A stretch of 64,000 bases of DNA from contig NC_037269.1 in assembly GCF_000002425.4 (NCBI RefSeq), forward strand, positions 5,461,834 through 5,525,833. Direction: 5' to 3'. This DNA is from Physcomitrium patens. Lineage: Eukaryota; Streptophyta; Bryopsida; Funariales; Funariaceae. Below are positions 4,264-58,761 of the stretch, piece after piece. Made by a program: the position numbers and the translations under genes. The stretch's first letter is position 1, and the number at the start of each line of letters is the position of its first letter. The notes below the pieces were generated by a model that worked only from the letters and a program-made list of their open reading frames with translations, had not been told where the DNA came from and ran no database searches.

Positions 4264-4264
<1 letters not shown>

Positions 4265-4300: not shown

Positions 4301-4303
<3 letters not shown>

Positions 4304-4387
4304 AAATTCACCTTTATTTCTTGAAATACTTTTTTTTATTCAAAATTTGATGAGTTAATTTTTACTTCAATGATACTTGTTATAGAT

Positions 4388-5880: not shown

Positions 5881-6160
5881 TAACTAAGACAAATGAGGCA
5901 TTGGTTGCCTTAAGTCCTATTAGGCTTATTCATAATGACACATAATTTTTTTTTTTTTTTCTTTTTTAGATTGATTTTATATTTTTATCTAATCTCTGAA
6001 TAAATATTTTTGATGTTATATTGTGGTCATATCTTAATCACTCCTAATATTATCATTAAAATATAATAAAAATTAATTATTAAAAAAAATTAGAATGCTT
6101 CATATAAATAAGTTGGAATTATTTTGAAGCTATCAATTGTATACCTTTTTATAATGTATG

Positions 6161-9841: not shown

Positions 9842-10806
9842 GATTGACAAGAGTTGTAAGTAACCAAGTTAAATCACTAGTTGTTTTAGAACCAAAGAAG
9901 GAATTTAGAGTGCCAATAATGAAATTTTTAGAAAAAAATTAATCTAAAGAAGTTAGAAGAAAGCAAAATAATATTAGTACAAAAATTACAATTTAGTATA
10001 GAAAATAAATTTAAAATCTACAATACAAAAGTCATTTTGGAGGTATCAATGAAAAATCATGTCTAACATCTAAAGAGCATCTAAGATAAATCTAAAACTT
10101 GTATATGAGACTATCAAGTATTATCTTGTAGGTATTGAAGCTTGGCTGCTAGCCATTTTTTTGATAAAAAAACTATGGCCAATAAAAATTCGAGTCTAGA
10201 TCATAATTTTTTTTTTTGTCTTGAGACAACTTAAAGCTCTCAAGGTGGCGGCAATTGATTGAAGTAGAGTGACAATATCTAATTCATTTTTTTCCTTGTA
10301 CAATTATAGTATTAAATCATTTGAGTTCAGTAGCTATTTTTTAATTGAGCCTTTCTTTCATTTTTTTTTGCTTTAGTAGAGTAGAAAGTTCCATAAATTG
10401 TGGTGTAAATTATTTTATTTTGTGTCATTTTTCTTATTTTTGTTCATTTATTCTTACAATCAAATTAGAGAGTTGTTACTTTTTTTAATTATGATAACAA
10501 TGACATTAGTTCATACAACAGTAAGGTAACAAGAATCATTGGTCTTTTGCAAGGTTTGCACTGTTAAGCATGGATTTATAGTACAATATAGAAGATAATT
10601 GATTTCCTCGGCTACTAAATTTCTTCTCATGCCTCAAGCTTTTGAACTTCTCAAGATGCCAAATATCCTCATTGAACCATGTTGTATTGCTAATATTATT
10701 AGAAAAAGCATTAAAGTTGCATCTTATGTAGTATTATTAATTTTTCTTCATTTTGGCAACCCTTTTATGATGCAAAATTCTTGCATCTTTCTAGTTGCTA
10801 ATATAG
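9842..10806. other. Unresolved AT-rich DNA, part repeated elsewhere
   Basis: Bases 10665-10806 recur in reverse orientation at about 16980-17110, so this is repetitive, probably the internal end of an LTR-C element. No gene or protein motif is recognisable in the remainder. Confidence 0.4.
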
Positions 10807-12367: not shown

Positions 12368-13009
12368 AGTCATTTTTAAAGTTATGTATTGATTTGGCTA
12401 CAAATTAAATTAGATTCTTATTGGAATATGGTTTGGGATTTTAATTAGATTGCTCCAAATAATTAATTGATATAGAAATTAGCCTTCAATGATATGGAAA
12501 TCTTCTTATTTTTGATGGAGTGAAGGCCCTCAATAAATTGATATTAGTTTTTATTGACTTTTTATTGTTGTAGAGACAGAGTTTGCCTTGAAAAAATACT
12601 AGGCTTCTAATTGCTATTAATTGCTCTACTATCTTGTATCTTTAGAACATATATAATACTCTATAATATAAATCTTTTATAAATTCACTTATTTCTCATA
12701 TCAAAAAATCCCTTTCATTAAATATTTACAAAAAAAAAATACAAGACAACAAAAAAACTTCTTTAAAATGTCATTATATCTTTGTCTTGACAAGGTTGCT
12801 ATTCTTTCAAAATCCTAAATCCTAAATCCTATTTTATTTTAAAATTTAAAATTTAAAATCCTTTTCCAAATCCTAAATCCTAAAATCTATTTTAAAATCC
12901 TAAATTCTAAACTCGAAACTTTACTCTGAAATACTAAATCTTAAATCCTAAATCTTATTTGTTTTTATTTTTATTTGACTTTGCATATTTCTTAAAAAAA
13001 ATTAAATTA
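12368..13009. other. AT-rich DNA with CCTAAAT-like tracts
   Basis: At 12810-12960 AATCCTAAATCCTA units recur irregularly. No gene is visible in this interval. Confidence 0.5.
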
Positions 13010-13386
13010 AAGATTCTAGAAAATTTATACTATTTCATTTTAAGCCATTTGATCATTAATTATCTTAAATAAAAATATAAATTCTATTAATTAATTATTC
13101 TAAAGTATATTTTTTCTTTATATAAACTTAGTTTTTTATTTCTAATAATTACAAAATTTCTTGCTAATATAATTCATCTATTTTTATATATATATATATA
13201 TAGATGATATTCTAAATTTATTTTTATTAATATTTAATTTAATCTAATAATTAATTAATTAATTAATTAATTAATTTATAATTATTTTTCAAATATTTTA
13301 GTCAATAAGAAAATATAAACTAAAAACTAATATATTTTATAGTTCTTATCTAATTTTTATAAATTGTGTACAAATACGACACAAAA
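13010..13386 (-). repeat. 3' LTR of a minus-strand Ty3 fossil (LTR-D)
   Basis: It is a direct repeat of 19380-19745, alignable over about 350 bp including TTTGTACA near the right edge, an (ATTA)n run and a (TA)n run. The pair brackets decayed gag and pol sequences read on the minus strand, which fixes the orientation. The left boundary is approximate. Confidence 0.72.
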
Positions 13387-16300
13387 TCCACTCCGTCTAA
13401 TCCTGCATATCCTCCAATATGTGCCATTAATCTTCTTCATTTTTTTCAGATTTTTGCAATATTTTCTTAAATTCTTCATCTTCTTAATCTTTTTCTTTTT
13501 TTTCTTATAAACAGCCAATATTATCTTCTTTATTGTGCCTTATATTTCTTTGCTTAAAAACCTTGACTCTATTGCCTACCATTGGATTTTTGATAATTGT
13601 TCCATCTAACTCATGTAAAGAATATGTACCATTATTATAGACTATAGTTACTATATAAGGCCCAAATCAATTCTTTGTAATAATTTTATTATACTATGTT
13701 GATGGATCAAGCTACTATCATAAATTAAAAATCTAATCTCCAACTATTATGGATTTAAATCTTAATTGATGTGTCTTATCAAATCTTTCTTTGTTTTTGA
13801 ATCAAGTTGCTTTTAATCTCTTTTTTGTTACTTCCAAATTTTTTATTAGCCTTCCTAATTATTAAATTTGAAGTTCCAATAGGCTTTCTCTATCAATTCT
13901 ATCTTTCCAAGATAAAAAAAATCCATATAGAATAAGATTTCTCAGTTGAAATCATTGGTTTTTGTCCTAATATGAATTCAGTAGACATATAATCAATCAC
14001 CATACTATAAGTAGTCCTATCAATCCACAATGCAAATAAAAGTAATTTTGGCTATTGTATTGACTTATCTTTATAAGCTTTCCTTAATGCATTAATGATA
14101 GGAAGATGACTTCTTTTAATTTTATCATTTCCTTTCAAATTATAAGAAATAGTAAATTTTAATTGAACTTCATATCTTTTGAAGAATTCCCTTGCCTCTA
14201 TTGCATCTAATTTTTTTCTATCTGCTCTCATTCTTCTAATACTCTTGCATTAGATAAAGTTATCTTTGAATATAAATTGACATACTCCTTCTATAAACTT
14301 GGTCTTTAAAGACCTTCCTTCAAAAAAAATTGATAGTTCTTTCTTTGCTAAAATCAAATATTTCATGTCCAAAAGTCCAAATGGCATAGCTACTAAATCA
14401 ATCACCTATTGAAAATTTATAGAAGGTGGATAGGTAGGTCAAAGTCTATTCCTGTACTTAAGCTTGGATTATATTTGATAATCTATATAAGAGCCTACAA
14501 AATATTTTATATCTTTGAATAGTGCTTTCTACCAATACCTCTCTTTGATTTTGATAAAAGTGGCCCAAACTTCACTATGTCCAATTCAAAGTGTATTATG
14601 AAATTCTTCTAAAACCTTATTTTTAGTTATTAGTTCTCTTACTATCTACAATGGAAACTTATCATCCTTCTTTGGCCTCTTCCGTAAAAATCTATCTTTG
14701 AGAAAATAGTCATAAGATTGATGTTGAATATCTTTAAAAAATTTATTCATTCAACCTTATTGCCTCTTTATTATGCTCAAATAAATTCTAATATCTTTAA
14801 GCCTCTCTTCATATGAATCTTCTTAGAAGATTTCAATCCTATCTTTGCAACTTACTTCTTTGATGGCAAATGAATATCTATAAGCCTTTTTATCTCCATA
14901 TTTTTCATCTTCATAAGCTATCATCTTTTCTTCACAAACATATCAAGCTTTAGATAACATATCTACTATTAATTAATCTTTTCCAATAATATGCTTCAAA
15001 ATAAATTTTAATATTTAGATGTAAGTTATCTATTTCTACATAATAATATTTAGAATATAACAATTACTTAGCATATTAAATAAAGATAGATAATCTATTT
15101 CTAAAACCACATTGATTCCAATCAAATAATTCACCTGAGCCTTTAAAGCCATAAATGTTCTTCAAAGTTCATGCTTAGCTTGTGGATATGCCTTTTGTCT
15201 ATCTATAAAGTTTTTGACTCCAAACCTTATTATAAATCTCTTTATTTTTTTTATTATTTTGTCCAATAGTCTATCCAATTGATATTGGATTAGTATCTAC
15301 TATCACTACTATTGGCCTTCTACATTCATAATCCACTTATCTAAAGATGGATGGTGAAGTTAAAATCTTCTTCAAATTTTCCATACCTTCTTTATGTTCT
15401 TCCTTCCAAATAATTTTTTTAGCTTTTTTCAATAGCTTATATAGTAAATTTGAAATATTGGCAAAATAAAGCATTCAAATATGATAAAAACATACATGCA
15501 TCCAAAAATCTTCTAACTTCAGTGATACTATTACATGCTTTCATTTTGAATATAGCACTAATCTTATTTAGGTTTAATTTCTTGCCATATTTTCCATACA
15601 TATGTTCTACAATTAGAATTTCTTTAATTTTTTTTTAAAGATAATGTCAAATTTACTAAATAAAACTTCTCCAATATTTGAGCCACATCTTCAATATGTT
15701 TTTTAATAAGTATTCTACAACCATTTGTATCAATAATTTATTATTATTTTTTTATTATTATTTTTTTCATACTTGAAACCTTTCATTGATATATCATCCA
15801 AAAGTGGAATAATCTTCTTTGGCACAAATTCTTTTAATATATGATTCTTTGTATTTTATATATGAGCTACTAAATTGGTTGCACTTTGAAGTAAAGTATA
15901 CATCTCTATCAAATCCAAAGAAGTCTTCATGGTTGTAAGATCTCTACTTTCTTTTGTCAATTGGAATTGATCATATCTTGAATATAAGTCTTTAATAGAA
16001 TAAATAGCATGACTCGCAAATTCTTTTGCTACTTCATTTACAACCAATCTAAATCCCATATTTTTAAGAAATCAAGAGCATTGATATTCATTTAAGATAT
16101 CCAACTAGTAAATCAAATCCATATATTAAAAGTTTTTATTTTATTTTATTTTATTTTATTCTTCTTCTTTCTATTTAATTCAAATCTTTATTTATTTTTA
16201 AAATTTTAAATCCACTATCATTAAAACTTAAGATCTATTATAAAAAATATTTATATTGAGATTGTTATAATTTTTATTTGCACCTTTATATTCTTTTTTT

Positions 16301-16639
16301 ATAAAGGTGGTCTCTAGAAATCCATAAATCTATCTTTGGATTCTAAAAGCATTTCCCTTAATTGATCTTGATGTCACTTATGAATACTTTTAATCATAAG
16401 AAATTGCATTGTTTTTTTTCATCACAACTATGGATTCTAACATAATAGAAACTTTCATCCAAAACTCTAATTTCTATTCTTGCAACAATAATATAAGATT
16501 GACTAAGAATTATCAAATATGTAGCTAAATTTTACTTCAAATATTTTTATTCCATCTGTACATCTCCAATCCTTGTCTTTACTACTAAGCAAGCTCCATA
16601 AAGATTTCTTTCTTGTTTATTTTCTATTCTAATTATCCA

Positions 16640-17110
16640 TCCATGATTCATTAGGATCCTTTGTTGTTTCTTTAAAGTTTTTATTTCTAATATTTCTTTA
16701 AAATTATTATTATTCCTTTAAAATTTTATTTTTATATTTTTAAAAATATTTTCTTGTTATTTTTTAAAAATTTAATCATGATTTCTTTGTGTTTCTTTTG
16801 TGACTGCTTTTAAATTTATTTAAATAGATTAAAATTTAATTGGATCTATTAGAGATTACTTGAAGTTTATTTAAAGCTCTATTAGACTTGGTAGAATTAT
16901 TGTTGCATTTTTACTTATCTTCCATAGCTAGGTGCTTGGTGCATTCTCAAGCAAGAACATATGTAATACGATACCGTAGTAACAACTAAAAAGAAGCAAG
17001 AATTTTGCATCATAAAAGGATTGCCAAAATAAAAAAAATTAATAATACTACATAAGAGGCAACTTTAGGGTTTTCTCCAACAATATTAGCAATAGAATAC
17101 AATGCATCAA
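16640..17110 (-). repeat. Inverted LTR-C fragment with flanking internal sequence
   Basis: It is reverse-complementary to 10665-11060, including AAGCTCTATTAGACTTGGTA-like and TTTTACTTATCTTCCAT blocks. It lies inside the Ty3 fossil in the opposite orientation to the copy at 10807 and is evidently a nested or rearranged insertion. Confidence 0.7.
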
Positions 17111-28685: not shown

Positions 28686-31567
28686 CTAATTGTTAGTGTC
28701 CACATCCTGTGAGGATGGAGGTCGGGGAGGCTTCTTAACCTTCTTGCTTCGGCCCTTCTTTTCGCGTAAGCGGCGTTTCTTCTCTTCCATGTCAATCCAT
28801 CGATAGTTGGGAGGAATCATGAATGGATCAGCCTCTTCCTCAAGCTGCTCCTCCAAGCTGCTCACTGTAGCACTCTTGCCTGAACCTGGAGCGCCTCTCA
28901 TCCAGTACAACCAGGAGCCCTGAGACGGGGCTGGCGCTGCGTCTGCCTCTGACTTGGCATCACTGAAGTGCCTGGGGCTGGATAAAGGGGTTGAAAATTC
29001 TTCCGCCGGTTTCAGTTCCTCGAATTTGGTGAAGGTGATAACCACTCTGATTGTCGGCACCACGGGAATAGCCACCTGTAGAAGCATGCAGATCAGCTAG
29101 AGAATGTCCTTCAAACTATATATGTCCATAAATGGATGGGATTTGTAATCAGCTTTCAGGCATTAGAATTTGTCAGGACAAGAAACAAAATACTGGCATT
29201 GAAAAGAATAATTGATCTTAGACATAAACCAAATGCATTGACAAACCTTAACAGGGAAGGTTCCTGGAGGCAACTTTGTAGTAAGCAATTCACGCAATCG
29301 CCGAACTGCCTTGACCTTGTTTGCTAGAATGTCCAGGAGCGGTAACAACTCCTCGGTCTTCAAAGGGTAGTCAGGTGTCAGCCACAAAATTGGTCTCAGC
29401 CCCTTTTTGTACTCACTCTCCGATGTAGCCTCAGGCTTGGGAGTACCACGACGGGACTTGCTCTTGATCAACTCCTTACTACTGGTACTATGTCTGCCAC
29501 TTTTCAATTCTTTCCCCTTTCCTTTTGCTGACAGCAGGTCATCAACATTCGACGGTCGCCGATCTACAGACGGCCGATTTTGGTTCTCATAGGCAGCTAA
29601 CTGACTATCTACAGACCTGCGCCCATCCACGGATTTCCTTTGCTTTAATAGCTTTAGTTGGGAGTCAGGTGTGGGTAAACCAGGACCTTGTTTAGATTTC
29701 CTTGGGGCCTCGGCACTTGAATGACCTGAATCAGAACCTTTGTCACTAAGCGAATCCAGCTTCTTAGAAGCTTTCACACTCTTCTTTCCCCAAGCATACC
29801 ACCGACTCCTTTTTTCATCTTTGGAAGATCCAAGCAATTCACCATTCCCGTTCTCATGGGGTGATTGCCTAAGATGTGAGTCGGATTCGTCATCTGAATC
29901 TTCGTTCAGGTAAACAAAATTCCCATTCTGCAACTCATGGTCTAGCCTTTCTGCACCACCGGTGCGGTTCTCATCTAAATGCTCCGCCTTCAGAACATTT
30001 TCCAGCTGCTCTTTCTCTGCAGTTGTAAGTAAATTGCTATAATCTTCGTCTGCCTCTGTATCTACCCTGTCACTATCGAGTGCAAATAGCTCCTCATCCG
30101 TCATCGCACCAGGAACTCTTCTAGACCTAACGCTCACCTGTACATAGATTTTCCATTGTCCACGAATATGAATGAAACCGAACCAATTACAAGAAACAAG
30201 ACGCATATAGCGCTAGGTCCTTGAGTAACGTCAATTCAATGTCAAAGTAAATATAGAGCACGATAGAAATCCTAGGATTCAGAAAGTAAAGCGACACAGA
30301 ACTTTCTGGATGCAGATAGACACATTCTATCCCAAAATAAGGATATACGCAACCCTTGCCAAAGAGCTCGTTGAGTGGGTTTGACCAGAATGAAGACACA
30401 AAACAGATCATTCTGATGCGCTCGGATTTACCTGAACATGGTGCATGTCATGAACTTTTGCCTTCCATGCTCCCACCATTTCTGTCTTTTCTTGTCGCCT
30501 CCACGACGTTTGAGCGACCAGCTCTGCCTCGGTGACATCAATGCCTGCATTGATGTGTTCACATCAGATGATAAATAATTAATGAGCTGAAAGCCGGATC
30601 AAATAGTTCACAAAATAAAATCGTCATATGAAAGAACAAAATGACCAATCAGCTCGAGGCGAGGAAGTAAAAGTTTCTTGTTCACGTACTCGCTTCTTCA
30701 CGCTGAATGACTCAGGCTAAATTTGACTCCAAAGCAACAAGACACCAGCGTGGAATAGATATTACCTGGCCTGTACATGTTAGTCCTTGACATGGCAGCG
30801 ACTTCTTGTGCAATCTCATTCTCTGACGGTTGTACCCCAGCACCCTCCAATGCATTTGCAACTTCCTTATCCTTGTGAGTCAAAACACAAAGAGTACCAG
30901 GTGCAAGTTTCCCATCTTCGCTTCCATCACCCAAAAACACAAAGCTCTGATCGGATCTGTGGATTCGGAATCCATCGAAGCCTGCGAGAGTCATATCTGC
31001 CCTAAGATTAGAGCCCCGTTTCCATATCCGGTAAGTATCAGACGGTGCAATGCGACCTATGAATGGTATAACAGAGCTCTCGAAATGAAAAGAAATCTCC
31101 ATGTAAAAGTCCCGCATCCGATGCATGGTAGCTGAAAGGCGCGGCAACCGACGGCACCACTTCGCCCACGCCATGGGTTGATAGTGCCGCGTGATGATGA
31201 TGGCAATTCCCTCCTCCCTTGCGCACACAGCCTCCTGCAATGCACTCCAACCTTGCTCATTTTGCAAACTCCAGTCTGCGCCAGCACTCATCAACATCTC
31301 TACGGCATCTGCGTCTCCGAGCCTCACAGCTAAATGCAAGGGCGTCTCACGCCCAGGCACATCACGCCTATCTATAACCTTCGAAATCTCGTCCGCTCGC
31401 TCCTCCGCTGCGATAGACTCTGCTTCCGTTGTCACCTCTCCCGCCTTCACAGGGCGTGGCAGCTTGGACAGAATTCGCTGCAGAGTGATGTGGTCTCGCC
31501 GTGCGACAGCGGCATGCACAGGGCTCTTGTCATAAGCTGCCAGCTCCAAACCCGAAAGCTGTGCCAT
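28686..31567 (-). CDS. Ankyrin-repeat protein with GPCR-chaperone domain (ANKRD13-like)
   Basis: Four exons give 731 codons: 31567-30766, 30544-30432, 30137-29247 and 29075-28686. All three introns are GT-AG with compatible phases (1, 0, 0). The start MAQLSGLELAAYDKSP precedes ankyrin repeats at residues about 14-45 and 71-128 (GRETPLHLA, GADWSLQNEQGWSALQEA). From about residue 150 (RDFYMEISFHFESSVIPFIG) to about 620 is the GPCR-chaperone/ANKRD13 domain, split by a Ser/Lys-rich linker and ending with WLTPDYPLKTEELLPLLDIL and a VVPTIRVVITFTKFEEL-type strand block. The C-terminus is basic (EKKRRLREKKGRSKK). Plant homologues share this organisation. Animal ANKRD13 proteins bind ubiquitin and act on endocytosed receptors; the plant role is not settled. 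No signal peptide or membrane segment is evident. The exon structure is inferred from homology and splice sites. Confidence 0.93.
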
Positions 31568-36232: not shown

Positions 36233-36688
36233 AGCAGAGAAGTTGAAAAGACAAAGAAACAAACAAAGAAAAATGCATTGATGGTAATATGGTCCATACT
36301 AAAACAATGTGAGTAGAGTCTTAAGGAACTTGAATGTAAGTGTGAATGCAAATGTAAATGTGAGTGGAATGAAATGGGAGGAAGGAAAAATTGAATGTTA
36401 GAAAGGTGGAAATTAATGAGCAGGATGGGATTATAGCAAAAAACAAATAGTAGTAGCAATGAAAAAATTGAGGTAGAGATGGCATATAAGATATAGATGT
36501 AGAGACGGATTGTGGTTGTGGTAGAGGGAGGACTTGGTGGTTGAAGATGTAAAGAGAATTGAAAATAATGTGTGGGGTATTTGTAGAGGCAAGAATGAAA
36601 TTGAGGAGTTGTATGTTGGTAGTTGCTAATCTAAAGAAAAGCATAGCAATAGAGGCAATAAAAATCAAGGTGAGCAAGGAGCAAGAAT
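36233..36688. other. Non-repetitive AT-rich stretch before a minisatellite
   Basis: Purine-rich on the plus strand, with open frames of up to 118 codons on the minus strand that run toward the minisatellite. They are low-complexity, match no family and are not called as genes. Confidence 0.35.
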
Positions 36689-37210
36689 AGAATAGAATTG
36701 TGAGAGTGTTGATATAGCAAATGTTGTAGGTATACTAGAGAACATTAGAATAGAATTGTGAGAGTGTTGATATAGCAAATGTTGTAGGTATACTAGAGAA
36801 CATTAGAATAGAATTGTGAGAGTGTTGATATAGCAAATGTTGTAGGTATACTAGAGAACATTAGAATAGAATTGTGAGAGTGTTGATATAGCAAATGTTG
36901 TAGGTATACTAGAGAACATTAGAATAGAATTGTGAGAGTGTTGATATAGCAAATGTTGTAGGTATACTAGAGAACATTAGAATAGAATTGTGAGAGTGTT
37001 GATATAGCAAATGTTGTAGGTATACTAGAGAACATTAGAATAGAATTGTGAGAGTGTTGATATAGCAAATGTTGTAGGTATACTAGAGAGCATTAGAATA
37101 GAATTGTGAGAGTGTTGATATAGCAAATGTTGTAGGTATACTAGAGAACATTAGAATAGAATTGTGAGAGTGTTGATATAGCAAATGTTGTAGGTATATT
37201 AGAGAACATT
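36689..37210. repeat. 58-bp minisatellite, exactly nine copies
   Basis: The unit begins AGAATAGAATTGTGAGAGTG and ends ACTAGAGAACATT. Nine head-to-tail copies fill 522 bases exactly. I see only two single-base variants, GAGCATT in one copy near 37090 and TATATTAG in the last copy. The near identity implies recent expansion or homogenisation. 58 is not divisible by three, so the array cannot keep one coding frame. Confidence 0.97.
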
Positions 37211-39470
37211 GGAAGGCATGATGTTGATCAAAGTGATGTATTTGAATAGTAGAATGAGGTTGCAGCTTGGATTGCAATAATTGAGTGAGGGTCATTAGAA
37301 TCTTAGTTGAATGATCTATTAATCGATTAATAATAGCAGTGGTATATGCAAAATTAAGAATATGCAAAGATAAGAGCTGTAGATGGAAGCATGACTCAAT
37401 ACATAGGATAGTGGTACAACAAAAGAAATTCACACAATGGCATGTGAAGGGTGTGTGAATGGTAGTTGGCATAGATTCAAGATCTTCTTTGTGGCCAATG
37501 GCATGGATTACTACTATTATATATATATATATACACACACTTGAGCTTTAATTTGAATATATTATTTTTTTAAGAAATTTATTTACAAATTCATATAAAT
37601 ATGATATTTTTATTATATTTGAAGTAATTTTTTAAATATAAAATAAATAAATTTCATATTGTGATTTTTTTTAAGTATCAAAATTTATTCAAACAATTAC
37701 GTTAAGACTTTTTAAATTCTTATTTTAATAAAAAATAACATTTTATTTTTTTGACATATATATAAATTTTTTAATTTTTAATTAACTTTTTTATTTAGTT
37801 TATTTTTTCTATTTTATTAAAGAAATCACATTATAACATAGAAAAAATAATAATCACATAAATTAAACAATAATGTTATAATGTGATTTATAATTCTAAT
37901 GAAAAAAATCAATTTTTGGAATTTAATTGCATGATTTTTTGAAAATAATGTAAATAGTGAAAATTTCATCTTTATGCAAAATAGTGTCTTATAACTACTT
38001 CAACCTATTTGATTACTATCCAATATATTACAAAATTCTACATTTTTCATAAAAATTAAAATTTAAGTTCTTTATATCTAAAATGCTATTATATAGATGC
38101 TACTTATATATATTTAAGATTCTTAAATATTCCTTCTTTCTTTATTGCATAAGTTAATTGCTTATTAGAATAATATTAGTATATCATTTATCATTCACTA
38201 TACTTTTAAATTCATCCATGTGAAAGTATCAAAGTAAGACATTACATATTATTAAGGATTTGGAATTATATTTGTTTGATATATTTATGTGGGACCTAAA
38301 ATATAATTTCTTTAAAAATTTCATATAATATTTGAAAATTTTAGACTTTAATGATTAAAAAATATTTTTTATTTATTATTTTATTAATATATCTTATATG
38401 TCTTTCTATATATATATATATATATTTCAAATTTTAAGCATTTATTATTTGATTAAACCTAAAAGAATGTTAATTTTAATTTAATAATATAATTTTTATT
38501 ATAGATTTTTAAATATATATATATATATATCATAATAATAAAATATTCAATTATTTAAAAGAAGTTAATATCTTTGTGAAGATTTTGTTTTAAAAAAAAT
38601 ACAATAGAACTATGCCACTTTCATATCCCTGGTTATAACTATTTTAAATTATTTATAACTTTTCCACAATATGTTTAAATATGATAATTGTTTTGGTGTT
38701 GTAGATTTATTATGCAATGAGCTGTTATTTTTTATGTTGTTTTAGATATATATCCTAATCATTAGGCATTATTTTGATGGCTCACACTACAAGCACACCC
38801 CAAATTGATATACAGACATCCATTATGTTTATATACATATCCAAGGTCTCTAATTGGTTGATCCAAATCTTTATTTCCTTGTTCCAACGTGGGCCTCAAA
38901 CCTCCTCCATTTCGTCTTTACTTTGGTGCATGTCTTGCTACTAGGACACGAAAAAAAATAAAAAAATAAAGAGGGAATTGGGACAAGGAAGAAAGGAAGG
39001 AAGGAATTTGGACAAAAAAGAAGAAAAAGACGAGACTAAGATCTACGTCAGGGCAAGGAAGACAGGGAAGAGGTCTAGCACTCATATTAGGACAAATAAA
39101 AAGGGATTTGGATTTGCCAATCAAATGCCTTGGATGTGTGTATGGACATAATAGGTGTGCATATAGCAATTTTAGGTGTGCTTATAGTTTGAGCCTATTC
39201 TGATATCTTATTTGCATTTGAATTTACATTTGGACTTTTGAAAAGAAGCTCTACAATATTGTTTTGTATTTTATAATTAAAATTTTTAATTCAAAAAATA
39301 ACTAATTAATATATATATATTAGAAATTGTGATTTAGAGCATTTAAAGCAATTTGTAAAAAGTAAATTACAAAACTTGAAGGTATAAAATGATATTGCCG
39401 AAGTACATAATGAAGTAGAAATCACAAGAAGTAAGACATCCAAAAAAAAACAACACTGCCCAGATCAAAA
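37211..39470. other. AT-rich intergenic DNA
   Basis: Several short (TA)n tracts occur, and nothing resembling a gene, RNA or alignable LTR family was identified. Confidence 0.4.
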
Positions 39471-46036: not shown

Positions 46037-49000
46037 TTACTTTCCCGGCTTTCCAGCTTTCCTCTTAAGTGATCGTACCAAAGACGATAGTTCAGCTTTT
46101 CTCTTACGATCCTTCGAGCCCTGAGCGGCATCATCAATCTCAGGGTTCAAGTCACCAGATCCAGTATTTTCAACCTTAGAGACTCCACCATCTTCAGATT
46201 TCTGCATACGTCTTCGTTGGGCTTCTGCTAGAATTTTAAGTTGAGCGGCAGACTTCCGAAACTGCGGATTGGTAGGGTCAATGGCGTAGTGATGATTGTT
46301 AAAAAGAGGTGCAAACCGTGGATCAGTCAAATCTGCAGAGGCCAATTTGTCGTCTTCCTGGTCATCGTCGTCTTTCCCACCTTTTTTCGACTTCCCTTTG
46401 CCCTTTTTCTTACTCTTAAGATTGAAACCCCGCGCTGCACCCTGTATCCCTTCGTCATCCATGAGAAGAAGCTCTAATTCGGCCTTTGTCCTCTCCTTTT
46501 CCTTCTTCTGCTGCTCCTTTTCTTCTCTTTTCTTTAATCTATCAGAATCGGCCGATTGCTTAGCCTTGCTCTTCTTTGGTGCTGCCTTTGATTCGTCTGG
46601 GAATTCATCAGCCTCAGCAAAAAAAGGATCATCAAACCCATTATCATCATCTGCTGCTCCCTGTTCTACGCGTGGACTGGCAATATCCTCGTCAGAGGAA
46701 TAATCATCATCAGAGTTCTTTGCATTCTTACTCCGTTTCTTCTGAGATTTCTTTTCTTTTTTCTTTCGTAAATAAGCTTCCCATACAGTCTCATCACCAC
46801 GTTTTTTAGCCTCTTTTTTCTGCAATAGCTTTTCACTAAGTTCAGATAATCCTGTGTGGAAGGTCACCTCCATGTCCACATCCCCTTTCTTTTTCTTCTG
46901 TCCATGTGGCTCGACCTCCTCTGTAGAATCCCCGAGTAGTAAAGAACGGTACTTGTCCTTTTTCGACGTGGCTCCTGAATATGCATCATTAGAGGCAGTG
47001 CCTCGCTCCGGACTGCTTGGACTCTCACCTTCATCAAGTTCTTCCGACGATGCTGATGCAAGGTAGTCTCTGTAGTGAGAAAGCAATTTCAGCATTAGAA
47101 TTCCAGCTCTTAAAACACAACTTGGGTGGCATGTTTTGTAATCGTTGATCCTGTACATCTGAATTAATCTCATTACGTAAAAGAGTAGTTCTACAGTACT
47201 GAGAATATATATACACCAACAACAGCTAAATAATTACAGAAGGTAAAGCAAATAAGCCTTAAGGTACACCTGAAATCCATTTCATTCAGTTCGTCTGCAT
47301 TGAACTTTTTCCGCAATGCCTTCACTCGTGTTGGTTCGTCATCGTCCCATGTCAGTTTCACAGTGCTATGTTGCAGCGCTCGTGTCTCAAACTCAGGAGC
47401 TTTGTACCCCTCTTGGGGCACCTCCTTGGCAACATCTCGGGGCTCTCTCACGAATTTCATGTCATCAGGAATGAATCGAAGATCAAGGGTGTTCGATGTC
47501 CGCTCAAACTCCATACCATCACATTGCGTGTACAAATGGTTGGCAGTTTCTTTTGTGTCACACTCAACTACAGCATAGTAGTACTTAAGCTTGTTTCTCT
47601 CATATGCACGAAGCTTCTCCATGTTCACTTCCTTGTCCTCGTCCTCATCGTCGTCATCATCATCGAAGATCATATTAGGACCATGCGCCTGGCACGTACG
47701 TAACACACAAAATCATATTATTCCTACTGGATAAACCATTATTAAACCACTATTGAATCACAAGTTAATGGCAACACGCAGTTTGGCCCTTTAATGGAAC
47801 TCAGCAGCTCCACAACATGGTGTCCAGTAGACTGCAAATGTAACTCAAGTCCCAGTTAAGCTCCAATTCGTTAACAAACTAGTGACTCGTTGAAAATACA
47901 AAGAAAACGAAATTGGACTTTTGATGTACAAGGTCTACCGTGATATGAATTATTCTGAAGAACTCCTGGTCAACAAGGGAAATAACCCATATACTCAAGA
48001 GCTAGGCACAAACCTCCTCTGCCTTCATTTGTTCGATGCCAAACTCCGAGGGGTAAATAGTTACGCATTCAACATTTCCACACTTTGGCTGGAAGGACCG
48101 CATCAGCATTAACAAGTCTACGGCCTTGATATGGTCCCAATCCATGTTCATCATTGCAATTCTCCGAGTCTCTGCACCTGAAGCTGTCGGAACCTTTTCC
48201 TCCTCCCTAGGGTCGTCAATCTCATCCTCTGCCTCACTTTCCGACGATGAACTGGAAGAAGAGGATTCTGCATCGCTAGCGGATACATCATCTTCATCAT
48301 CTTCCTCTTCCTCAGAAACACTATCCTGCTCCGCAATAGAAACTTTGGCGGTTCTAGACTTTCTACCAGTGTTTATTTCTAAATCCTCTTCCTCATCGCT
48401 ATTCAGATTAATTTCGTCGGCACTATCTTCTTCCTCGTCACTCTCTTCCTCATCACTCTCTTCCACAACAAGCCTAGAGGGTTTTGGTCTAGCTAATTTC
48501 TTTCCGTCCACACTCTTCACAGCCTTTCTGCCCGCAACCTTCCCTTTCAACGTCGGATTAACAACAGAGTCCTCATCGCTCTCATCGCCACTGTCCTCGT
48601 CATCACTTACTTCCAAACCGAGCTTTGAAGGTGCTACAGGCCCTGGGAATTTAGGCCCAGTTACAATCTTACTCTTCGCCTTCTCACCTCCTTGCTTTCC
48701 TTGCAAAGCCTTGATCGATGTTTTGCTCCCGTCCTTGCCTTTAGACTTCGTCTTCTCCACAGTCTCTTCACCACTGCTTCCATCGACTTCTGCGTTCCCC
48801 TCAGCTTCATCCTCGTCTTCACCTACCTTGTAATACCGCTGCAACATGTGCTTCTCCTTCTTCTTCTTCGCACGTCCTCTCTTATCCGCCCCTAACGGAT
48901 CAGAAAAATTCTTGTCCGAAAACATGTGCGAGAAACGCTTATCAATCGACACCTTCGTCTTATTTGTCGGCATACGCATGAACCGAGGGTCCGTATGTAC

Positions 49001-49069
49001 CCTAGCAAACCTCGGGTCAGATATGGTCGCAGGCGCAGGCCCGCCGCTGCCATCCTTGTTCTTCTTCAT
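46037..49069 (-). CDS. ESF1: ESF1 homologue, pre-rRNA processing protein
   Basis: Three exons give 835 codons: 49069-48014, 47688-47270 and 47069-46037, with GT-AG introns (phases 0 and 2). The chosen start MKKNKDGSGG leads directly into paired DPRF motifs and SIDKRFSHMFSDKNF, the conserved ESF1 N-terminus. An in-frame ATG 26 codons upstream (49147) is less likely, because a splice-acceptor-like sequence lies between. Residues about 100-300 are acidic/Ser and Lys-rich. Residues about 307-470 form the RRM-like core (MNMDWDHIKAVDLLMLMRSF, then YYYAVVECDTKETANHLY and FERTSNTLDLRFIP). The C-terminus has a NUC153 motif at about 741-780 (DPRFAPLFNN, AIDPTNPQF). Yeast Esf1 is a nucleolar factor needed for 18S rRNA maturation in the small-subunit processome; the same role is inferred here. 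Confidence 0.95.
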
Positions 49070-49301
49070 GATTCCAAACCACGCCAAACTGCGAAACAAC
49101 AAAGCTTCACCAGAATCATTCACCACCTTTCCGCTAACACGAGACACAAGACCTCAGTACCTTCAAAGGAACAACACAACAGGTCGCAAACAACCAATTC
49201 AATTCCGGGATTACTGCCAAGACATTACTCTCGAACATAAGAGCCCCTGTAAAATCTCACACTCCGGCTCTGGTGTCAACTAAGCGCCGGCAGTGAACCC
49301 G

Positions 49302-52027: not shown

Positions 52028-52263
52028 TCACCTCTTTTCCATTTCTTTTAGAAATAAGTTCTATGAGGAGAAATCATCATATGTTCAAAAAGTACAAGAT
52101 ACAATAAATTGTATTTGCCGCATACTTTGATCTTTGTTCTCTTTGAAGGTGATTGATAGGTCTTTTTAGCCATCAATATTCTTTCATATAAGGGCAAAAA
52201 GACCACCCTATTATTTAATTATTATTGAAACCTTCATAACTTTCTGTTAGGGACATAGTCCTT

Positions 52264-52427
52264 AGAACCTTCTAGAGACAAGTTTCTAGAACCTTCTAGA
52301 GACAAGCTTCTAGAACCTTCTAGAGACAAGCTTCTAGAACCTTCTAGAGACAAGCTTCTAGAACCTTCTAGAGACAAGCTTCTAGAACCTTCTAGAAGCA
52401 AGTCTCTGGAATCTTCTAGAAGCTTCT
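52264..52427 (+). promoter_or_regulatory. Heat-shock element array, distal block of the 5' LTR
   Basis: Four tandem 24-bp units (52284-52379) each contain TTCTAGAACCTTCTAGA, matching the alternating TTCnnGAAnnTTCnnGA pattern. A fifth variant at 52380 extends to a complete TTCnnGAAnnTTCnnGAA. At 52409-52426 GGAATCTTCTAGAAGCTTC gives GAAnnTTCnnGAAnnTTC. These are ideal heat-shock-factor binding sites by consensus. Binding itself is inferred. Confidence 0.85.
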
Positions 52428-52460
52428 TAGTTGATAGAAGATGTTAGGGACATAGTCCTT

Positions 52461-52527
52461 AGAACCTTCTAGAGATAAGTTTCTAGAACCTTCTAGAAGC
52501 AAGTCTCTGGAACCTTCTAGAAGCTTC
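52461..52527 (+). promoter_or_regulatory. Heat-shock elements, proximal block of the 5' LTR
   Basis: At 52481-52497 TTCTAGAACCTTCTAGAA forms four perfect alternating pentamers. GGAACCTTCTAGAAGCTTC at about 52509-52527 forms another four (GAAnnTTCnnGAAnnTTC). The block is about 45-110 bases upstream of the TATA box. Confidence 0.85.
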
Positions 52528-52568
52528 GTAGTTGATAGAAGTTGCTTGAGAAGCTTCCTAAATAGGAG

Positions 52569-52576
52569 TATATATT
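52569..52576 (+). promoter_or_regulatory. TATA box of the 5' LTR promoter
   Basis: TATATATT in GGAGTATATATTGGAA lies downstream of the heat-shock elements and is preserved in the 3' LTR at 58308-58315. Transcription would start about 25-35 bases downstream, defining the U3/R border near 52605. Confidence 0.65.
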
Positions 52577-52761
52577 GGAATCGAGGTTGAAGAGTTCTTC
52601 AGTCTTGACAACACATCTCTTGGAGCTTTAGCTCACCTCTCTGGTGTTGTTCTTGTATTCATTTGATTAATCTAGTTCTTGCCAGTTCTTCTTGAACTTC
52701 TTGGTAGATATCAAGTTTGTATTCTGTGTACATGACAGTTTGTCGAGACTTCACTCAATTT

Positions 52762-52773
52762 AGATATCAGAGC
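52762..52773 (+). other. Candidate primer-binding site
   Basis: AGATATCAGAGC matches 10 of 12 bases of TGGTATCAGAGC, the complement of the initiator-Met tRNA 3' end. It starts 25 bases after the LTR end, farther than usual, so either two mutations and a spacer have accumulated or another primer is used. Confidence 0.4.
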
Positions 52774-52828
52774 TAGTTCTTCTTTGTTAGAGTGTGGATT
52801 ACCCCTCTACTTGGAAGTGTACTAGCAT

Positions 52829-52972
52829 TTTAGAGGTTGCGGATTACCCTCCTCTAAATTGATACTTCTTTTGTTACAATATTGGAGTCTTATTCTTCTT
52901 GGAGAGAGTGGATTACCCCTTTTCATGAAGCTCTTAAGGCATTTTAGAGGTTGCGGAGTACCCTCCTCTAAA
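52829..52972 (+). other. Two repeated hairpins in the element leader
   Basis: TTTAGAGG pairs with CCTCTAAA at 52829-52858 and again at 52943-52972, each enclosing a loop with TTGCGGA-TACCCT. The hairpins are 114 bases apart, and each is preceded by GTGGATTACCCC. They lie in the transcribed leader upstream of gag. A diverged relative at 59360-59510 retains a similar pair. Confidence 0.7.
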
Positions 52973-53016
52973 CCAATATTGTCTTCTTGTAGAGTCATTT
53001 CTGTCCTTCTCTTAGA

Positions 53017-54041
53017 ATGGCCGGGGGTCAAGACATTAGTATGATGGAAAGTTCAGAGTCCAAGTTAGATGCTATCATAAATGCCCTCACTATATTATCG
53101 CAAAGAACTGCAGAGATTGAAGGAGTCATGGCAAGGCTTCATAATGATGGAACATCTGGAATGGGACAATCTAGGTTGCACCAGCCTCAAACTTCTGCAC
53201 TTGGAGAAGCAACTTTGCCTCATGTTCGACAAGCACCGCTGGTTCTACAACATAAGGAGCCCCGAGTTAGCCTTCCGGACAAGTTCGATGGTATGCGTTC
53301 CAAGTTTCGAGGATTCGTCAATCAAATCAGGTTGATAACAGTTTTACAACCCGAATGCTATCCAATGGAGGAGTCACGTGTTGGGCTTGTTGGAACCTTA
53401 CTTACAGGGCAAGCTCTATTATGGTTTGCTCCTTTGTTTGAGAAACGATCGTCCATACTAAACAACTTTGAAACCCTTTTGGAGGCGTTTGCAGAAGCAT
53501 TTGGTGAACACGATAAGGTTCAATGGACTACAACAAAGATCCGGTCACTACGACAAGGGATGCGTTCTACATCAATCTATGCATCGGACTTCAAGCAATT
53601 AGCATGCTACATCAATTGGGACGAAGAAGCGTTGATGAGTCAATTCTATTGGGGTTTAAGGGACGATGTGAAGGATTTATTGTTAACTCTTCCTGATCCG
53701 CAAACGCTCAACGAAGCTATTAGCCAAGCTGTGAAGTGCGATAACCGCCTATTCCAACGTCGCCAAGACCAACGTTCAAGACAACATACGATTCACCACA
53801 TCCCAATTATGTCGGCAAGCAGCGTGAATTCACATTCAGTGGTAGAAGACATGCAAATTGATGCGATACGTGTCAAATCTCTTACTCTAGAAGAAAAAAA
53901 TGGCGTATGAAGGAAGGTCTATGCTTGTATTGCGATGAAGAAGGCCACAAAGTTGGAAACTGTCCCAAGAAGCAAAATCGACGTATTATCAAGACTAGAG
54001 GTGCGTTTATTCAGGAAAACGAGGATGCCCAGCGACAATAG
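53017..54041 (+). pseudogene. gag: gag polyprotein, frameshifted
   Basis: ATG at 53017 opens 298 codons ending at 53910. Capsid-type residues run from about 88 (PDKFDGMRSKFRGFVNQIRL) through GTLLTGQALLWFAPLF and EAFAEAFGE to FYWGLRDDVKDLLLTLPDPQ, typical of the Retrotrans_gag domain. At 53894-53900 a run of seven A's ends the frame. The -1 frame continues from 53901 and contains an intact zinc knuckle, C-x2-C-x4-H-x4-C, at 53922-53963 (CLYCDEEGHKVGNC), stopping at TAG 54039-54041. A one-base loss from an A8 run, or programmed slippage, are both possible. Gag would form the cytoplasmic particle that packages the RNA. Confidence 0.88.
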
Positions 54042-54046
54042 GAACT

Positions 54047-57000
54047 GTGCGGCTGGACAGTGAAATATCGCAACAACAACCAGGTTCCTTTCTTTCCGCT
54101 CAACCTGTCCTTTGTTTTACAATCCTTTTGTTTATTGGCCCTCAGAAACTGAAAACCTTAGCATTATTAGATTCAGAAGCATCTGCTTGTTTTTTAGACG
54201 AAGAATTTACGAAGCATCATAAGATCCCTTTAGTACAAAAATCCAAACCTGTTCACGTTGAGGTCATAGATGGACGACCTTTATTGTTTGGTAGTGTCAC
54301 CCATAAATCAGAACCTATAGAAGTGACGTTTAAGGGCCATAATAGTCATATTATTTTCAATATTATTAGAACCCCATCAAATCCTGTTATTCTTGGTCTT
54401 TCTTGGTTGGAAAAGCATAACCCATCCATAGATTGGAAGTTGCGGAAGATGACCTTTCCCACAAAACCACCCAAGAGCAAGCCTAGTAGAAAATCCTGAA
54501 TAGAAAAATCTTTATTTATTGGAGCAAGAGCGTTTATAAGATCGTCCAAGGAAGGCACACCATTTGTCATTTATGCGACTCCAACTATTGGGGAGAAGAT
54601 CTCGACAGCAAGTATATCGGAGCAATATAAGGATTTTAAAGACGTGTTTCAAAAGAAAAATGCCGACATACTACCGGAACACAGACCATATGATTGCGCC
54701 ATAGACTTACAGGAAGGAGCACAATCGCCTTTTGGCCCAATCTACAATCTATCGCAGACAGAGTTGGTGGAATTGCAGAAGTACATTGACGAGAATCTAG
54801 CCAAGAACTTCATCCGTCATTCAAAATCGTCAACTGGAGCACCCATCTTATTTGTGAAGAAGAAAGATGGCTCATTGCGGATGTGCGTGGACTATCGAGG
54901 CCTCAACAAGGTAACAAAGAAGAATCGTTATCCGTTACCCTTGATTTCTGGTCTCTTAGAACAACTTGGACATGCAAAGATCTTTACAAAAATTGATCTA
55001 AGGGGAGCTTACAACCTCGTACAAATTAAGGAAGGAGATGAGTGGAAGAGAGTGTTCCGTACAAGGTATGGCCATTTTGAATATAATGTCATGCCCTTTA
55101 GTCTTACCAATGCTCCAACAGTCTTCCAACATATGATGAATGACATTTTTCGGGAGCACCTTGATGATTTTGTTGTCATCTACTTGGATGATATTTTGAT
55201 ATTTTGTAAAAATGAGGAAGAGCATGAAAAGCATGTTCGTTTGGTCTTGGAGAAACTATGCAAGCGAGGACTATATACCAAGTTGGAGAAGTGTTTATTT
55301 CACCAAATGGAGATGGAATTTTTGGGATTCGTTGCGACTATGGAAGGCTTGAAGATGGACTCCAAGAAGGTGGAAGCAATCGTGTCGTAGGAGGTTCCGA
55401 AGATGGTTAGAGACTTACAATGCTTTTTTGGCTTTGCTAACTTGTATCGAATCTTCATCAAAAATTATTCTCAAGTTGCTGCTCCTCTCACTCGATTGAC
55501 ATGCAAGGATAAGCTGGAATGGGGACCTCTAGCGGAGAAGGCATTTCAAGACCTGAAGACGGCATTTACTACGGCTCCAATCTTGGTACATCCAGACTTT
55601 ATAAAGGCCTTCTATTTAGAAACTGATGCTTCGGATTTTGCTTTGGGAGTTGTACTTTCACAAATGAGAGAAGATAAGAAGCTCCATTCGGTTGCATTTT
55701 ATTCTCGAAAGTTGTTTGCTGCTGAAATCAATTATGAGATCCACGATAAGGAACTTCTTGCTATAGTGGATTCTTTCCAAGAATGGCATCACTTTCTTGA
55801 AGGAGCTACACACCTAGTGACCATATACACAGATCACAAGAATTTGGAGTATTTCATGTCGGCTCGAGTTCTAAATCGACGTCAAGCTCGGTGGAGTATG
55901 TTGCTAGCTAGGTTCGATTTTGTTATCACTTATCGACCTGGAAAGCAACAAGGACTATCTGATGCCTTATCGAGGAGATCGTATCTTATACCAAAGGCTG
56001 GAGAAGCAATGTTTGATCAACAATGTACGACATTGTTGAAGCGAGAGCAATTTCAGCTTTGTGCTACTATTGTGCCAATTGATGCTGACTTCCTGAATCA
56101 GGTACGTGCCGTGACCATTGAAGATTCAGTAGCTATTGATATTAAGCAGTGTGCCAATGACGACAAGTTCAAGGTGGAGGGAGATCTTTTATACTTTGAG
56201 GAGCGATTATATATCCCAAAAGGACTAGCACGACTCCGAGTTCTTCAATCTCGCCACGATTTGCCAACTGCGGGACATTTTGGATTCAACAAGACCTTGG
56301 AGCTTATTTCTCGAGATTTTTGGTGGCCCCAAATGTGGAAAGATGTGAAAGATTTTGTCATCTCCTGTGACATCTGTTCAAGATCCAAGAATCCTCGGCA
56401 TCGCCCTTATGGACTCCTACAGCCATTGTCGATTCCACGTCGACCATGGTCTTCAATTTCCATGGACTTCATCACGGACCTGCCATCATCGAACTCATTT
56501 GACAGCATCTTTGTCGTGGTAGATCGGCTTACAAAAATGGTGCACTTTGTTCCTTGCAAGAAGACATCGTTTAGTGAAGTAACAGCAATGCTCTTTCTCG
56601 ATAATGTGTATCGATATCATGGACTACCAGATGATATCATATCAGATCGAGGAACCCAGTTCGTATCAAAGTTTTGGAGATCTCTCTTTGAGATACTGAA
56701 GGTGGATATCAAGCTTTCTTCGGCTTTTCATCCTCAAACTGACAGCCAAACGGAACGAGTGAACCAAGTCTTGGAACAATACTTACGATGCAGCATCAAC
56801 TATCAACAAGACGATTGGACCACATATCTGCCGCTAGCTGAGTTTGCATATAACAACACCCTCCCTGCATTGACCCAATATACACCATTCTTTTCCAACT
56901 ATGGGTATCATCCGAAGCTTGATTTATTGAGTCCATCAACAAATAACAATCCAGCAGCTGAAGGATTTGCGAAACAACTATCAGAGCTTCAAAATACGTT

Positions 57001-57520
57001 GAAGCTTCAATTACAATCTCCTCAAGAATCCTACAAGGCATTTGTAGATAGATTTCGGAATCAAGCACCTACTTTCAAAATTGGAGATAAAGTATGGCTT
57101 CTTCGACGGAATATCAAGACCAAGCGACCATGTGATAAGTTGGACTATCGAAGATTGGGACCATTTATCATCCAGAAGCAAATCAATCCAATGGCGTACC
57201 GTCTGGAATTACCGGCTTCTATGAAAGTACATCCAGTCTTTCATGTTTCTCTATTGGAGCCTTATCGAGAATCGTCTTTTCCTGGAAGAGTGCAATGTTC
57301 GCCACCTAGTATTGGAATTGAGAACCATGAGGAATACGAGGTTGAAAAGGTACTAGATTCACAGCGAAGGTGGGGCAAGTTGGGGTATCTTGTTCATTGG
57401 TGCGGCTACGACATTAATGAACGAACGTGGGAGCCAGCTGAAAATCTCGCCAATGCGCCGCAAAAGGTACAGGAGTTTCATCAACCACATCCTCATAAAC
57501 CTAAGCCGATTCAACGATAG
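54047..57520 (+). pseudogene. pol: pol polyprotein with chromodomain, two in-frame stops
   Basis: One frame of about 1158 codons, open upstream to 53999 and so overlapping gag by about 43 bases, is broken by TGA (54497-54499) and TAG (55388-55390). Order: aspartic protease (LLDSEASACFLD, where the usual D-S-G is D-S-E); reverse transcriptase with VKKKDGSLRMCVDYRGLN and active-site YLDD; RNase H (ETDASDFALG, YSRK, HDKELLAI, TDHKNLEY); integrase with H-H-C-C zinc site (HDLPTAGHFG, CDICSRSK) and D-D-E residues (SMDFITD, ISDRGTQF, QTERVNQ); GPY/F-like RRLGPF; and C-terminal chromodomain (YEVEKVLDSQRRWGKLGYLV, WEPAENL). The chromodomain places it among chromoviruses and probably steers integration to marked chromatin. 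Confidence 0.95.
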
Positions 57521-57552
57521 CTTCCTTCTGAAGCTTATTCATCCAAGAATAT

Positions 57553-57567
57553 AAGAAAGGGGGAGAG
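57553..57567 (+). other. Internal polypurine tract
   Basis: AAGAAAGGGGGAGAG lies 33 bases after the pol stop. It looks like a classical plus-strand primer tract but is about 490 bases from the 3' LTR, with the extra ORF in between. Confidence 0.6.
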
Positions 57568-57651
57568 CACCACCAAAATTCGTAGTTGATGTAGTTATTT
57601 TCTCTAAGATAAAATAGAATTTTTTTAGCAGCCATAGTTTGGTCTTCTGAT

Positions 57652-58005
57652 ATGGATAGCCAAGAGATAGATACTATGCCAGTCAGATTATCTCAACCAA
57701 CTAACTCACGAAGGCGATCCCCAGATGAAGAACTACCTGCACCACGACGACGACGGAGGATACCAAGTAATCGATCATTGGTGATTGTATTTGAATCCGA
57801 GCCTGCTTACGATGGTCAGCTAGAAGGCATATTTGCAGGACAATTTCACAATGAAGACACGAAAGTTCATGCTTGGTCAGAAGTTGAAGGAGTGGGCCAC
57901 TACCGTTGGCTTCAAGGGTCGATGAACCACTTACCTAGTGAACAACAGTTGGAGTTCATAGCAGACGTTATGCGACAGATCTTCATTTTCTTGCGTTGGT
58001 ACTAA
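57652..58005 (+). CDS. Extra ORF between pol and 3' LTR, function unknown
   Basis: ATG-initiated and uninterrupted for 117 codons, in sense orientation, between the chromodomain and the 3' LTR. The N-terminus is polar and proline/serine-rich, with an arginine cluster at residues 31-37 (PRRRRRI) resembling a nuclear-localisation or RNA-binding patch. The C-terminal two thirds (SLVIVFESEPAYDG, HAWSEVEGVGHYRWLQG, EQQLEFIADVMRQIFIFLRW) looks like a small folded domain. No signal peptide or clear membrane span is present. Ty3 elements normally stop after integrase; extra 3' ORFs are occasional and diverse. It carries no disabling mutation although gag-pol does. I do not recognise the family. It could be a captured host fragment or a genuine accessory protein. 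Confidence 0.6.
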   Translation: MDSQEIDTMPVRLSQPTNSRRRSPDEELPAPRRRRRIPSNRSLVIVFESEPAYDGQLEGIFAGQFHNEDTKVHAWSEVEGVGHYRWLQGSMNHLPSEQQLEFIADVMRQIFIFLRWY

Positions 58006-58043
58006 TTGACAACAACATTGCTTCTCAGAGACCTCGAAGCTAA

Positions 58044-58055
58044 ATGAGGGGGTGA
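58044..58055 (+). other. Polypurine tract next to the 3' LTR
   Basis: ATGAGGGGGTGA ends exactly where the 3' LTR begins, the expected place for the plus-strand primer. Confidence 0.65.
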
Positions 58056-58476
58056 TGTTAGGAACATAGTCCTTAGAACCTTCTAGAGACAAGTTTCTAG
58101 AACCTTCTAGAGACAAGCTTCTAGAACCTTCTAGAAGTAAGTCTCTGGAATCTTCTAGAAGCTTCTTAGTTGATAGAAGATGTTAGGGACATAGTCCTTA
58201 GAACCTTCTAGAGATAAGTTTCTAGAACCTTTTAGAAGTAAGTCTCTGGAACCTTCTAGAAGCTTCCTAGTTGATAGAAGTTGCTTGAGAAGCTTCCTAA
58301 ATAGGAGTATATATTGGAATCGAGGCTGAAGAGTTCTTCAATCTTGACAACACATCTCTTAGAGCTCTAGCTCATCTCTCTGGTGTTATTCTTGTATTCA
58401 TCTGATTAATCTAGTTCTTGCTAGTTCTTCTTGAACTTCTTGGTAGATATCAAGTCTGTATTCTATGTCCATGATA
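58056..58476 (+). repeat. 3' LTR of the chromovirus (421 bp)
   Basis: It starts TGTTAGGAACATAG and ends GTCCATGATA, the last CA having become TA. It has one 24-bp heat-shock unit (58095-58118) plus a variant, against four plus a variant in the 5' LTR, and retains the proximal GGAACCTTCTAGAAGCTTC block and the TATA box at 58308-58315. Confidence 0.96.
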
Positions 58477-58761
58477 CTTTCTACAAATAAATCTATCTCC
58501 AATAAAATTATCAAATATCAATAGTATCTTCTAAGGTTGTGATACCAAATGTATTATATCTAACCATCTATTTGAAAAAAAACATGTTGTTCTTGAAGAT
58601 CTTCATTTCTATTACATTATCTTAAAAGCTGTGAAAATTACAATTTTTTCTTTGATACATTGGCAAATAATAGTTCTTGAGTTGAATCTACTCATTGTTG
58701 ATTCTTTATCTACTTAGTGCCACAAACATACAAAAATTATAAAGAAGGATAGAAAGTAGAA

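Follow-up and report, generated by a model that had tools for sequence, protein, structure and literature searches.

The window is a 64-kb stretch of the 470-Mb genome of the moss Physcomitrium patens, whose assembly comprises 27 chromosomes, the 27th being small. It contains a Ty3 element that, together with its 5-bp TSD CTTTC, spans positions 52240-58481. Exons encoding an ESF1/NUC153 domain (46037-49147, minus strand) have their upstream end about 3.1 kb from the element, and a neighbouring plant gene encodes an ANKRD13-type ankyrin protein (29163-31567, minus strand). The element presents the following features:

52240-52244, no strand: TSD CTTTC on the 5' side, same as 58477-58481
52245-52737, plus strand: 5' LTR of 493 bp, TG...CA
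52569-52576, plus strand: TATA box, 32 bp before the predicted start
52601-52611, plus strand: predicted transcript start and self-primer, pairing with 52740-52750
52740-52750, plus strand: primer-binding site (PBS) for self-priming, pairing with 52601-52611
53017-53910, plus strand: gag, Retrotrans_gag (PF03732, E 2.4e-14)
54644-55390, plus strand: pol, reverse transcriptase part (RVT_1, PF00078)
55403-57520, plus strand: pol, RNase H, integrase and chromodomain part (PF17917, PF17921, PF00665, PF24626, PF00385)
57652-58005, plus strand: additional ORF of 117 aa between pol and the 3' LTR
58046-58055, plus strand: polypurine-like tract 5' of the 3' LTR, identified by eye
58056-58476, plus strand: 3' LTR of 421 bp with four HSE runs, 72 bp shorter than the 5' LTR
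58477-58481, no strand: TSD CTTTC on the 3' side, same as 52240-52244

The Pfam domains follow the gypsy order and include a chromodomain, which sets the element apart from Ty1/copia, the group of the ONSEN family itself. The chromodomain lies at the C-terminus of the integrase (PF00385, E 5.1e-15), as in the Tcn1 clade, to which the element probably belongs. The initial annotation of this DNA had described a Ty3 chromovirus with an amplified array of heat-shock elements (HSEs); the Retrotrans_gag, RVT_1, RNase H, integrase and Chromo domains bear this out, and the HSEs are indeed in tandem. The pol frame of the window copy is interrupted and this copy is therefore probably non-autonomous. Over 421 aligned bases, its two LTRs show 15 transitions and 2 transversions (K2P 0.042), corresponding to an age of about 2.3 My at a rate of 9e-9, as used in PMC7466625. 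They are further distinguished by a single gap of 72 bp, which represents exactly three 24-bp units of the array described below.

We defined an HSE run as a series of exact alternating TTC/GAA cores at 5-bp steps, with three or more cores (3P, 4P). Eight perfect runs, four 3P and four 4P, were found in the 5' LTR within 52284-52527; at least seven TTC/GAA blocks had previously been claimed for the U3. The runs of the two LTRs are placed as follows:

52284-52296, 52308-52320, 52332-52344 and 52356-52368, plus strand: exact 3P runs of the 5' LTR
52380-52397, 52409-52426, 52481-52498 and 52510-52527, plus strand: exact 4P runs of the 5' LTR
52284-52397, plus strand: HSE block 1, a tandem repeat of four 3P and one 4P exact runs on a 24-bp unit
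52409-52426, plus strand: exact 4P run closing block 1
52442-52527, plus strand: second copy of the LTR head, with two more 4P runs
58095-58107, 58119-58136, 58148-58165 and 58249-58266, plus strand: HSE runs of the 3' LTR (one 3P and three 4P)

When the 5' LTR was shuffled with its dinucleotide composition preserved, none of the sequences reached eight runs (0/5000) or four 4P runs (0/5000), and the mean was 0.017 runs. The four runs of the 3' LTR were likewise reached by 0/5000 dinucleotide shuffles. The remaining 63 kb of the window contain one 3P run and no 4P run. Because the runs of a tandem array are mutually dependent, the 24-bp unit was tested separately: a run of three was obtained in 74 of 200,000 random permutations of the unit placed in tandem. 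The array presents two levels of construction, the 24-bp unit and the duplicated LTR head from position 52442 onward. Since the 5' and 3' LTRs differ by exactly three 24-bp units, the number of HSEs changes after or during insertion. Two further probable LTR pairs were found, with lengths of 493/535 and 502/502.

We then extended the analysis to other copies of the family. Set A consists of the window and 39 full places among 40 scored of the 1715 candidates of an array search, for a total of 41 LTRs when the window's own 3' LTR is counted, and is biased toward similar arrays. Set B consists of 20 of 39 other places with a matching leader downstream of the LTR (one of the 39 leader-matched places was already in set A), which were fetched regardless of the array. 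HSEs were present in 41/41 LTRs of set A, where the number of runs ranges from 4 to 11 (median 6) and every LTR has one or more runs of four; no LTR's run count was reached in 200 shuffles per LTR. They were also present in 20/20 LTRs of set B, where the range is 2 to 6 (median 4) and every LTR has a run of at least four cores; again no LTR's run count was reached, with 500 shuffles per LTR. Absence of the pentamer pattern from the family had been named as a possibility that would count against the initial proposal; the pattern is present in 61/61 LTRs examined, including the two of the window. As in ONSEN, the LTR thus has a 3P or 4P HRE ahead of the start in all 61 cases. Given that about four runs appear to be the usual state in set B, the 5' LTR of the window, with eight, represents an expanded version. 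Using a strict pattern, we found two copies of the LTR head in 25 of the 41 set-A LTRs, one in 12, three in 3 and none in 1. Across these 41 LTRs, the spacer between TTC and GAA is TA in 346/387 cases; a pyrimidine-purine step of this type is typical of HSEs (PMC8379338). The array 13-mer TTCTAGAACCTTC is identical to an HSE given for yeast HSP26 (PMC4214751) and is also found within a promoter probe of C. elegans hsp-70 (PMC9148306).

The abundance of the family was estimated from a random sample of 20 stretches of 10 kb taken at round coordinates (200 kb). Near-complete copies were found in 2 of the 20 stretches (L060 and L065), which by arithmetic corresponds to about 4,700 copies genome-wide, with a Poisson 95% interval of about 570-17,000 that reflects the two copies in 200 kb. 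The sample contained 19 runs with at least three cores and 7 with at least four; a Markov model matched in composition gives expectations of 3.4 and 0.0, respectively. These seven longer runs are all located in LTRs of this group: two in L060, three in L065 and two in the diverged relative L049. The weak cases are the LTR piece on the 5' side of L060 and the relative L061, with one run each, a count reached by 17/2000 shuffles in each case.

In the window, the 3' end of the array lies 73 bp before the predicted start; the HSEs begin 285 bp and end 42 bp upstream of the TATA box, in good agreement with the 45-300 bases of the initial annotation. The median span of the HSEs upstream of the predicted start is 73 to 293 bp in set A and 73 to 245 bp in set B, and the TATA box is found at -32 from this start in 40/41 and 20/20 LTRs, respectively. 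The U3 is poor in CpG (o/e 0.14 vs 0.79 in pol in the window; set-B median 0.10). With 4 CG and 4 CHG cytosines vs 131 CHH cytosines in the U3 of the window, the CG and CHG contexts are strongly depleted, not absent.

The predicted start also appears to supply the primer of the element. In the window, the self-primer and the PBS pair through 10 Watson-Crick pairs and one G-U over 11 bases, and the 11 bases on the PBS side start 2 bases inside the element, past the end of the 5' LTR. The self-primer of Tf1 measures 11 nt. In set B, the pairing was 11/11 Watson-Crick in 12 of the 20 copies and 9-10 in the other 8. Both sides are altered together in the relative L049, where CTCGATAA faces TTATCGAG (2483-2493 and 2611-2620, by eye), and L061 presents a different yet matching pair, ACTCTTGTCAA with TTGACAAGGGT, including one G-U (502-512 and 688-698, by eye). 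This joint change of self-primer and PBS between diverged moss elements supports both self-priming and the predicted start, as judged from their complementarity. The complementarity of R start and PBS across copies and relatives points to self-priming in place of a tRNA primer site, as in the Tcn1 clade. Because self-priming of plant Tcn1 elements has already been described (PMC6317226), we use it as independent support for the start site and not as a new claim.

Scanning the contigs of other genomes yielded two relatives, L069 and L070. L069 (1-3847), a contig of 3.8 kb assigned to a cyanobacterial MAG, carries the same type of element with 86% identity over residues 2-338 of the pol piece. 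Its DNA probably comes from another moss. Two 3P HSEs were found in the 128 bases before the R start, at which distance the contig begins; one of them sits at the position of the last 4P site of the window, and L069 retains both a TATA box and a self-primer pair. L070 is 38% identical and was left out of the analysis. Both contigs are filed under bacterial MAGs with a chromovirus pol (86% and 38%), and probably represent eukaryotic contamination of the bins. Scans of IMG/VR with the 24-bp unit and with the pol piece returned no relative.

A sister subfamily was recognized through a published repeat. Pp17_50 is a 50-bp tandem repeat of P. patens that occupies 285,023 bp (RepeatExplorer cluster 10; PMC6302065 Table 3) and was published as a satellite candidate (PMC6302065); that article nowhere uses the terms "heat shock", "heat stress" or "LTR retro". 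The 50-bp monomer contains one 3P and one 5P run. A 30-mer of Pp17_50 gave 1,030 matches in the genome when up to one mismatch was allowed, relative to 0 for the reversed control, which agrees with P. patens as the host, also the host of RLG1. Among the matches listed there are at least 11 pairs of places 5.60-5.79 kb apart; the LTR starts of the window are 5.81 kb apart. The three places that we read are all 5' LTRs with 5-7 HSE runs, up to 5P, and they present a similar TATA box, the exact R start and a PBS match of 10 or 11 of 11. They therefore share TATA, R start and PBS with the LTRs of the window, but their linkers are of another sequence than in the window's subfamily: CTAGAAAAGAAGCC and TCTAGAAGAGAAG were absent from the 40 set-A places, the random sample and set B, and CCTCTGGAACC occurred a single time, in L089. 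At least in these three places, Pp17_50 is thus the HSE array of a sister subfamily, which would give this "satellite" candidate a likely role as a promoter array.

Based on this promoter anatomy, an enhancer that recruits heat-shock factors (HSFs) is predicted. We consider it probable that the tandem array of perfect HSEs in the U3 is bound by HSFs and drives the element from its TATA box. Moss HSFs would bind the array as trimers, and the bound factors would then recruit transcription of the element from the TATA box. An HSF trimer recognizes three nGAAn units in alternation (PMC8379338), the LTRs of Brassicaceae show a correlation between heat induction and 4P sites, the strongest class (PMC5059998), and an artificial promoter made of tandem consensus HSEs was reported to be very inducible (PMC4326385). 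The array may have grown by duplications of 24 bp and of roughly 100-200 bp, with more sites perhaps conferring a promoter that is stronger or gated by stress. Enhancer activity, HSF binding and this cause of array growth are all inferred from the sequence. The condition activating the HSFs could be heat, another proteotoxic stress or the growing protonema; heat is the natural guess, but results in print for the probable family argue against it.

Those data concern RLG1, a chromodomain family that is the most abundant of the genome with 5092 complete copies, and that is reported to be expressed in protonema without stress, heat shock and UV-B both leading to its repression (PMC7466625). The chromodomain, the Tcn1-like self-priming and the abundance of the element suggest that it most likely belongs to RLG1. 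RLG3 is also possible, and RLG2 is less likely than RLG1. In protonema, heat and ABA strongly induce RLG2, but its 529 complete copies and its tree congruent with that of plants (PMC7466625) are a poorer fit to a chromodomain element of high copy number. The heat inducibility proposed initially is unsupported as written, and the probable family is reported as heat-repressed (PMC7466625). If the element is an RLG1, a simple ONSEN-like reading conflicts with the published RNA-seq, unless there are differences between copies, an effect of timing or a role of HSFs in basal expression.

It is conceivable, if somewhat doubtful, that HSFs bind the array without heat induction, through basal or developmental HSF activity in the protonema or through a repressor-type HSF, class B HSFs being repressors, so that heat lowers the transcript. 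Such a role agrees with the expression of RLG1 in unstressed tissue and its repression by heat shock and UV-B (PMC7466625), and the chromodomain, the Tcn1-like self-priming and the abundance (2/20 stretches) suit RLG1 over RLG2. However, the link to RLG1 is itself indirect, and the 3P/4P sites of Brassicaceae LTRs go with heat induction (PMC5059998). The number of HSEs also varies from 2 to 11 per copy, and the family average may therefore hide induced copies. The same repression of RLG1 (PMC7466625) weighs against an HSF-driven enhancer, as do the equal conservation of HSE cores and spacers within the 24-bp unit (299 units; p = 0.75), the smaller number of runs in leader-selected relative to array-selected copies (median 4 against 6) and the single runs of L061 and of the 5'-side piece of L060. 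Because the cores are no more conserved than the spacers, we do not claim selection on the HSE cores.

This lack of difference would also be expected if slippage had passively amplified a 24-bp stretch containing chance TTC/GAA words without any regulatory role, and the 72 bp (three units) by which the LTRs of the element differ in length, together with the 493/535 pair, indicate that the array is unstable. We nevertheless regard passive amplification as improbable, given that so few permutations of the unit produce a 3P run (74/200,000) and that subfamilies with other units or periods (Pp17_50 with its 50 bp; the diverged L049) also have 3P-5P runs. The array could instead act as a nucleic-acid structure, with the inverted TTCTAGAA repeats in the U3 of the 3' LTR folding in RNA and contributing to reverse transcription, 3' end formation or silencing dsRNA. 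The predicted fold of the array is stable (-141.6 kcal/mol; z -13.35), and none of 200 shuffles folded as well in the model, but such folding is expected of any tandem array of inverted pentamers. Moreover, the sister subfamilies and L069, which have other units, retain the 5-bp HSE register and the promoter position, neither of which a hairpin needs, and this structural role seems very unlikely to us. An HSF-bound enhancer remains our preferred explanation of the array.

The best-known LTRs with HSEs belong to copia elements of angiosperms. The array resembles the LTRs of ONSEN/ATCOPIA78, TERESTRA, COPIA37 and ROMANIAT5, COPIA elements of Brassicaceae with perfect HREs (3P, 4P) before the start (PMC5059998). 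The U3 of these elements is nearly devoid of CG and CHG cytosines (PMC5059998, PMC3907296), and all the cytosines of the ONSEN LTRs examined are CHH (PMC3907296); in the U3 of the window both contexts are strongly depleted, with 4 cytosines left in each. The ONSEN-type elements are Ty1/copia with one 4P and weaker sites, and their heat induction and binding by HSFA2 are proven, whereas the moss element is a Ty3 chromovirus that has eight perfect runs in tandem and is known here from its sequence. In its chromodomain, self-priming, 5-bp TSD and moss host, the element is similar to the Tcn1-clade chromoviruses of mosses (PpatensLTR, RLG1; PMC2864245, PMC6317226). The available text of these two articles does not mention an HSE array, and RLG1 is reported as heat-shock-repressed (PMC7466625). 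TCN3 and TCN12 of Cryptococcus are also LTR elements with putative HSEs and a heat-biased mobility, but they have one or two such sites instead of a tandem array (PMC12810828). Heat-induced Ty3 elements are in print, in the table of a review (PMC9780303), and together with the fungal HSE-bearing LTRs (PMC12810828) they make "first in Ty3" an overclaim. Among the matches listed in searches of one open-access library, none describes a self-primed chromovirus of a moss with an amplified array of perfect HSEs.

The present results thus place a larger HSE array and a CG-poor promoter in a self-primed chromodomain Ty3 element of a moss, in every family copy examined. They also reveal a sharp conflict between strong HSEs and a likely family published as heat-repressed. 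A speculative and rather unlikely extension is that the dominant group of moss retrotransposons has spread a self-amplifying HSF-binding array, which would constitute portable stress enhancers in thousands of LTRs, every one with several trimer sites of high affinity, and a genome-wide HSF sink. If true, such a sink would tune the heat response of the moss, and would explain the fall of the transcript, as heat would make chaperone genes compete for HSF.

Several minor observations were made in the window. The 117-aa ORF at 57652-58005 had no match in Pfam and PDB searches; it is preceded by the pyrimidine-rich TTTTTTTAGCAG, and similarity at the protein level was found in relatives of the random sample (85%, 79%, 56% and 32%), several of them with stops. 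A tandem repeat with a unit of 58 bp is located at 36688-37214 (9.1 copies; 99% matches). Finally, a 278-nt inverted repeat (10742-11019 and 16761-17038) is 86% complementary with 5.7 kb between its arms, and a similar copy lies near 35491.
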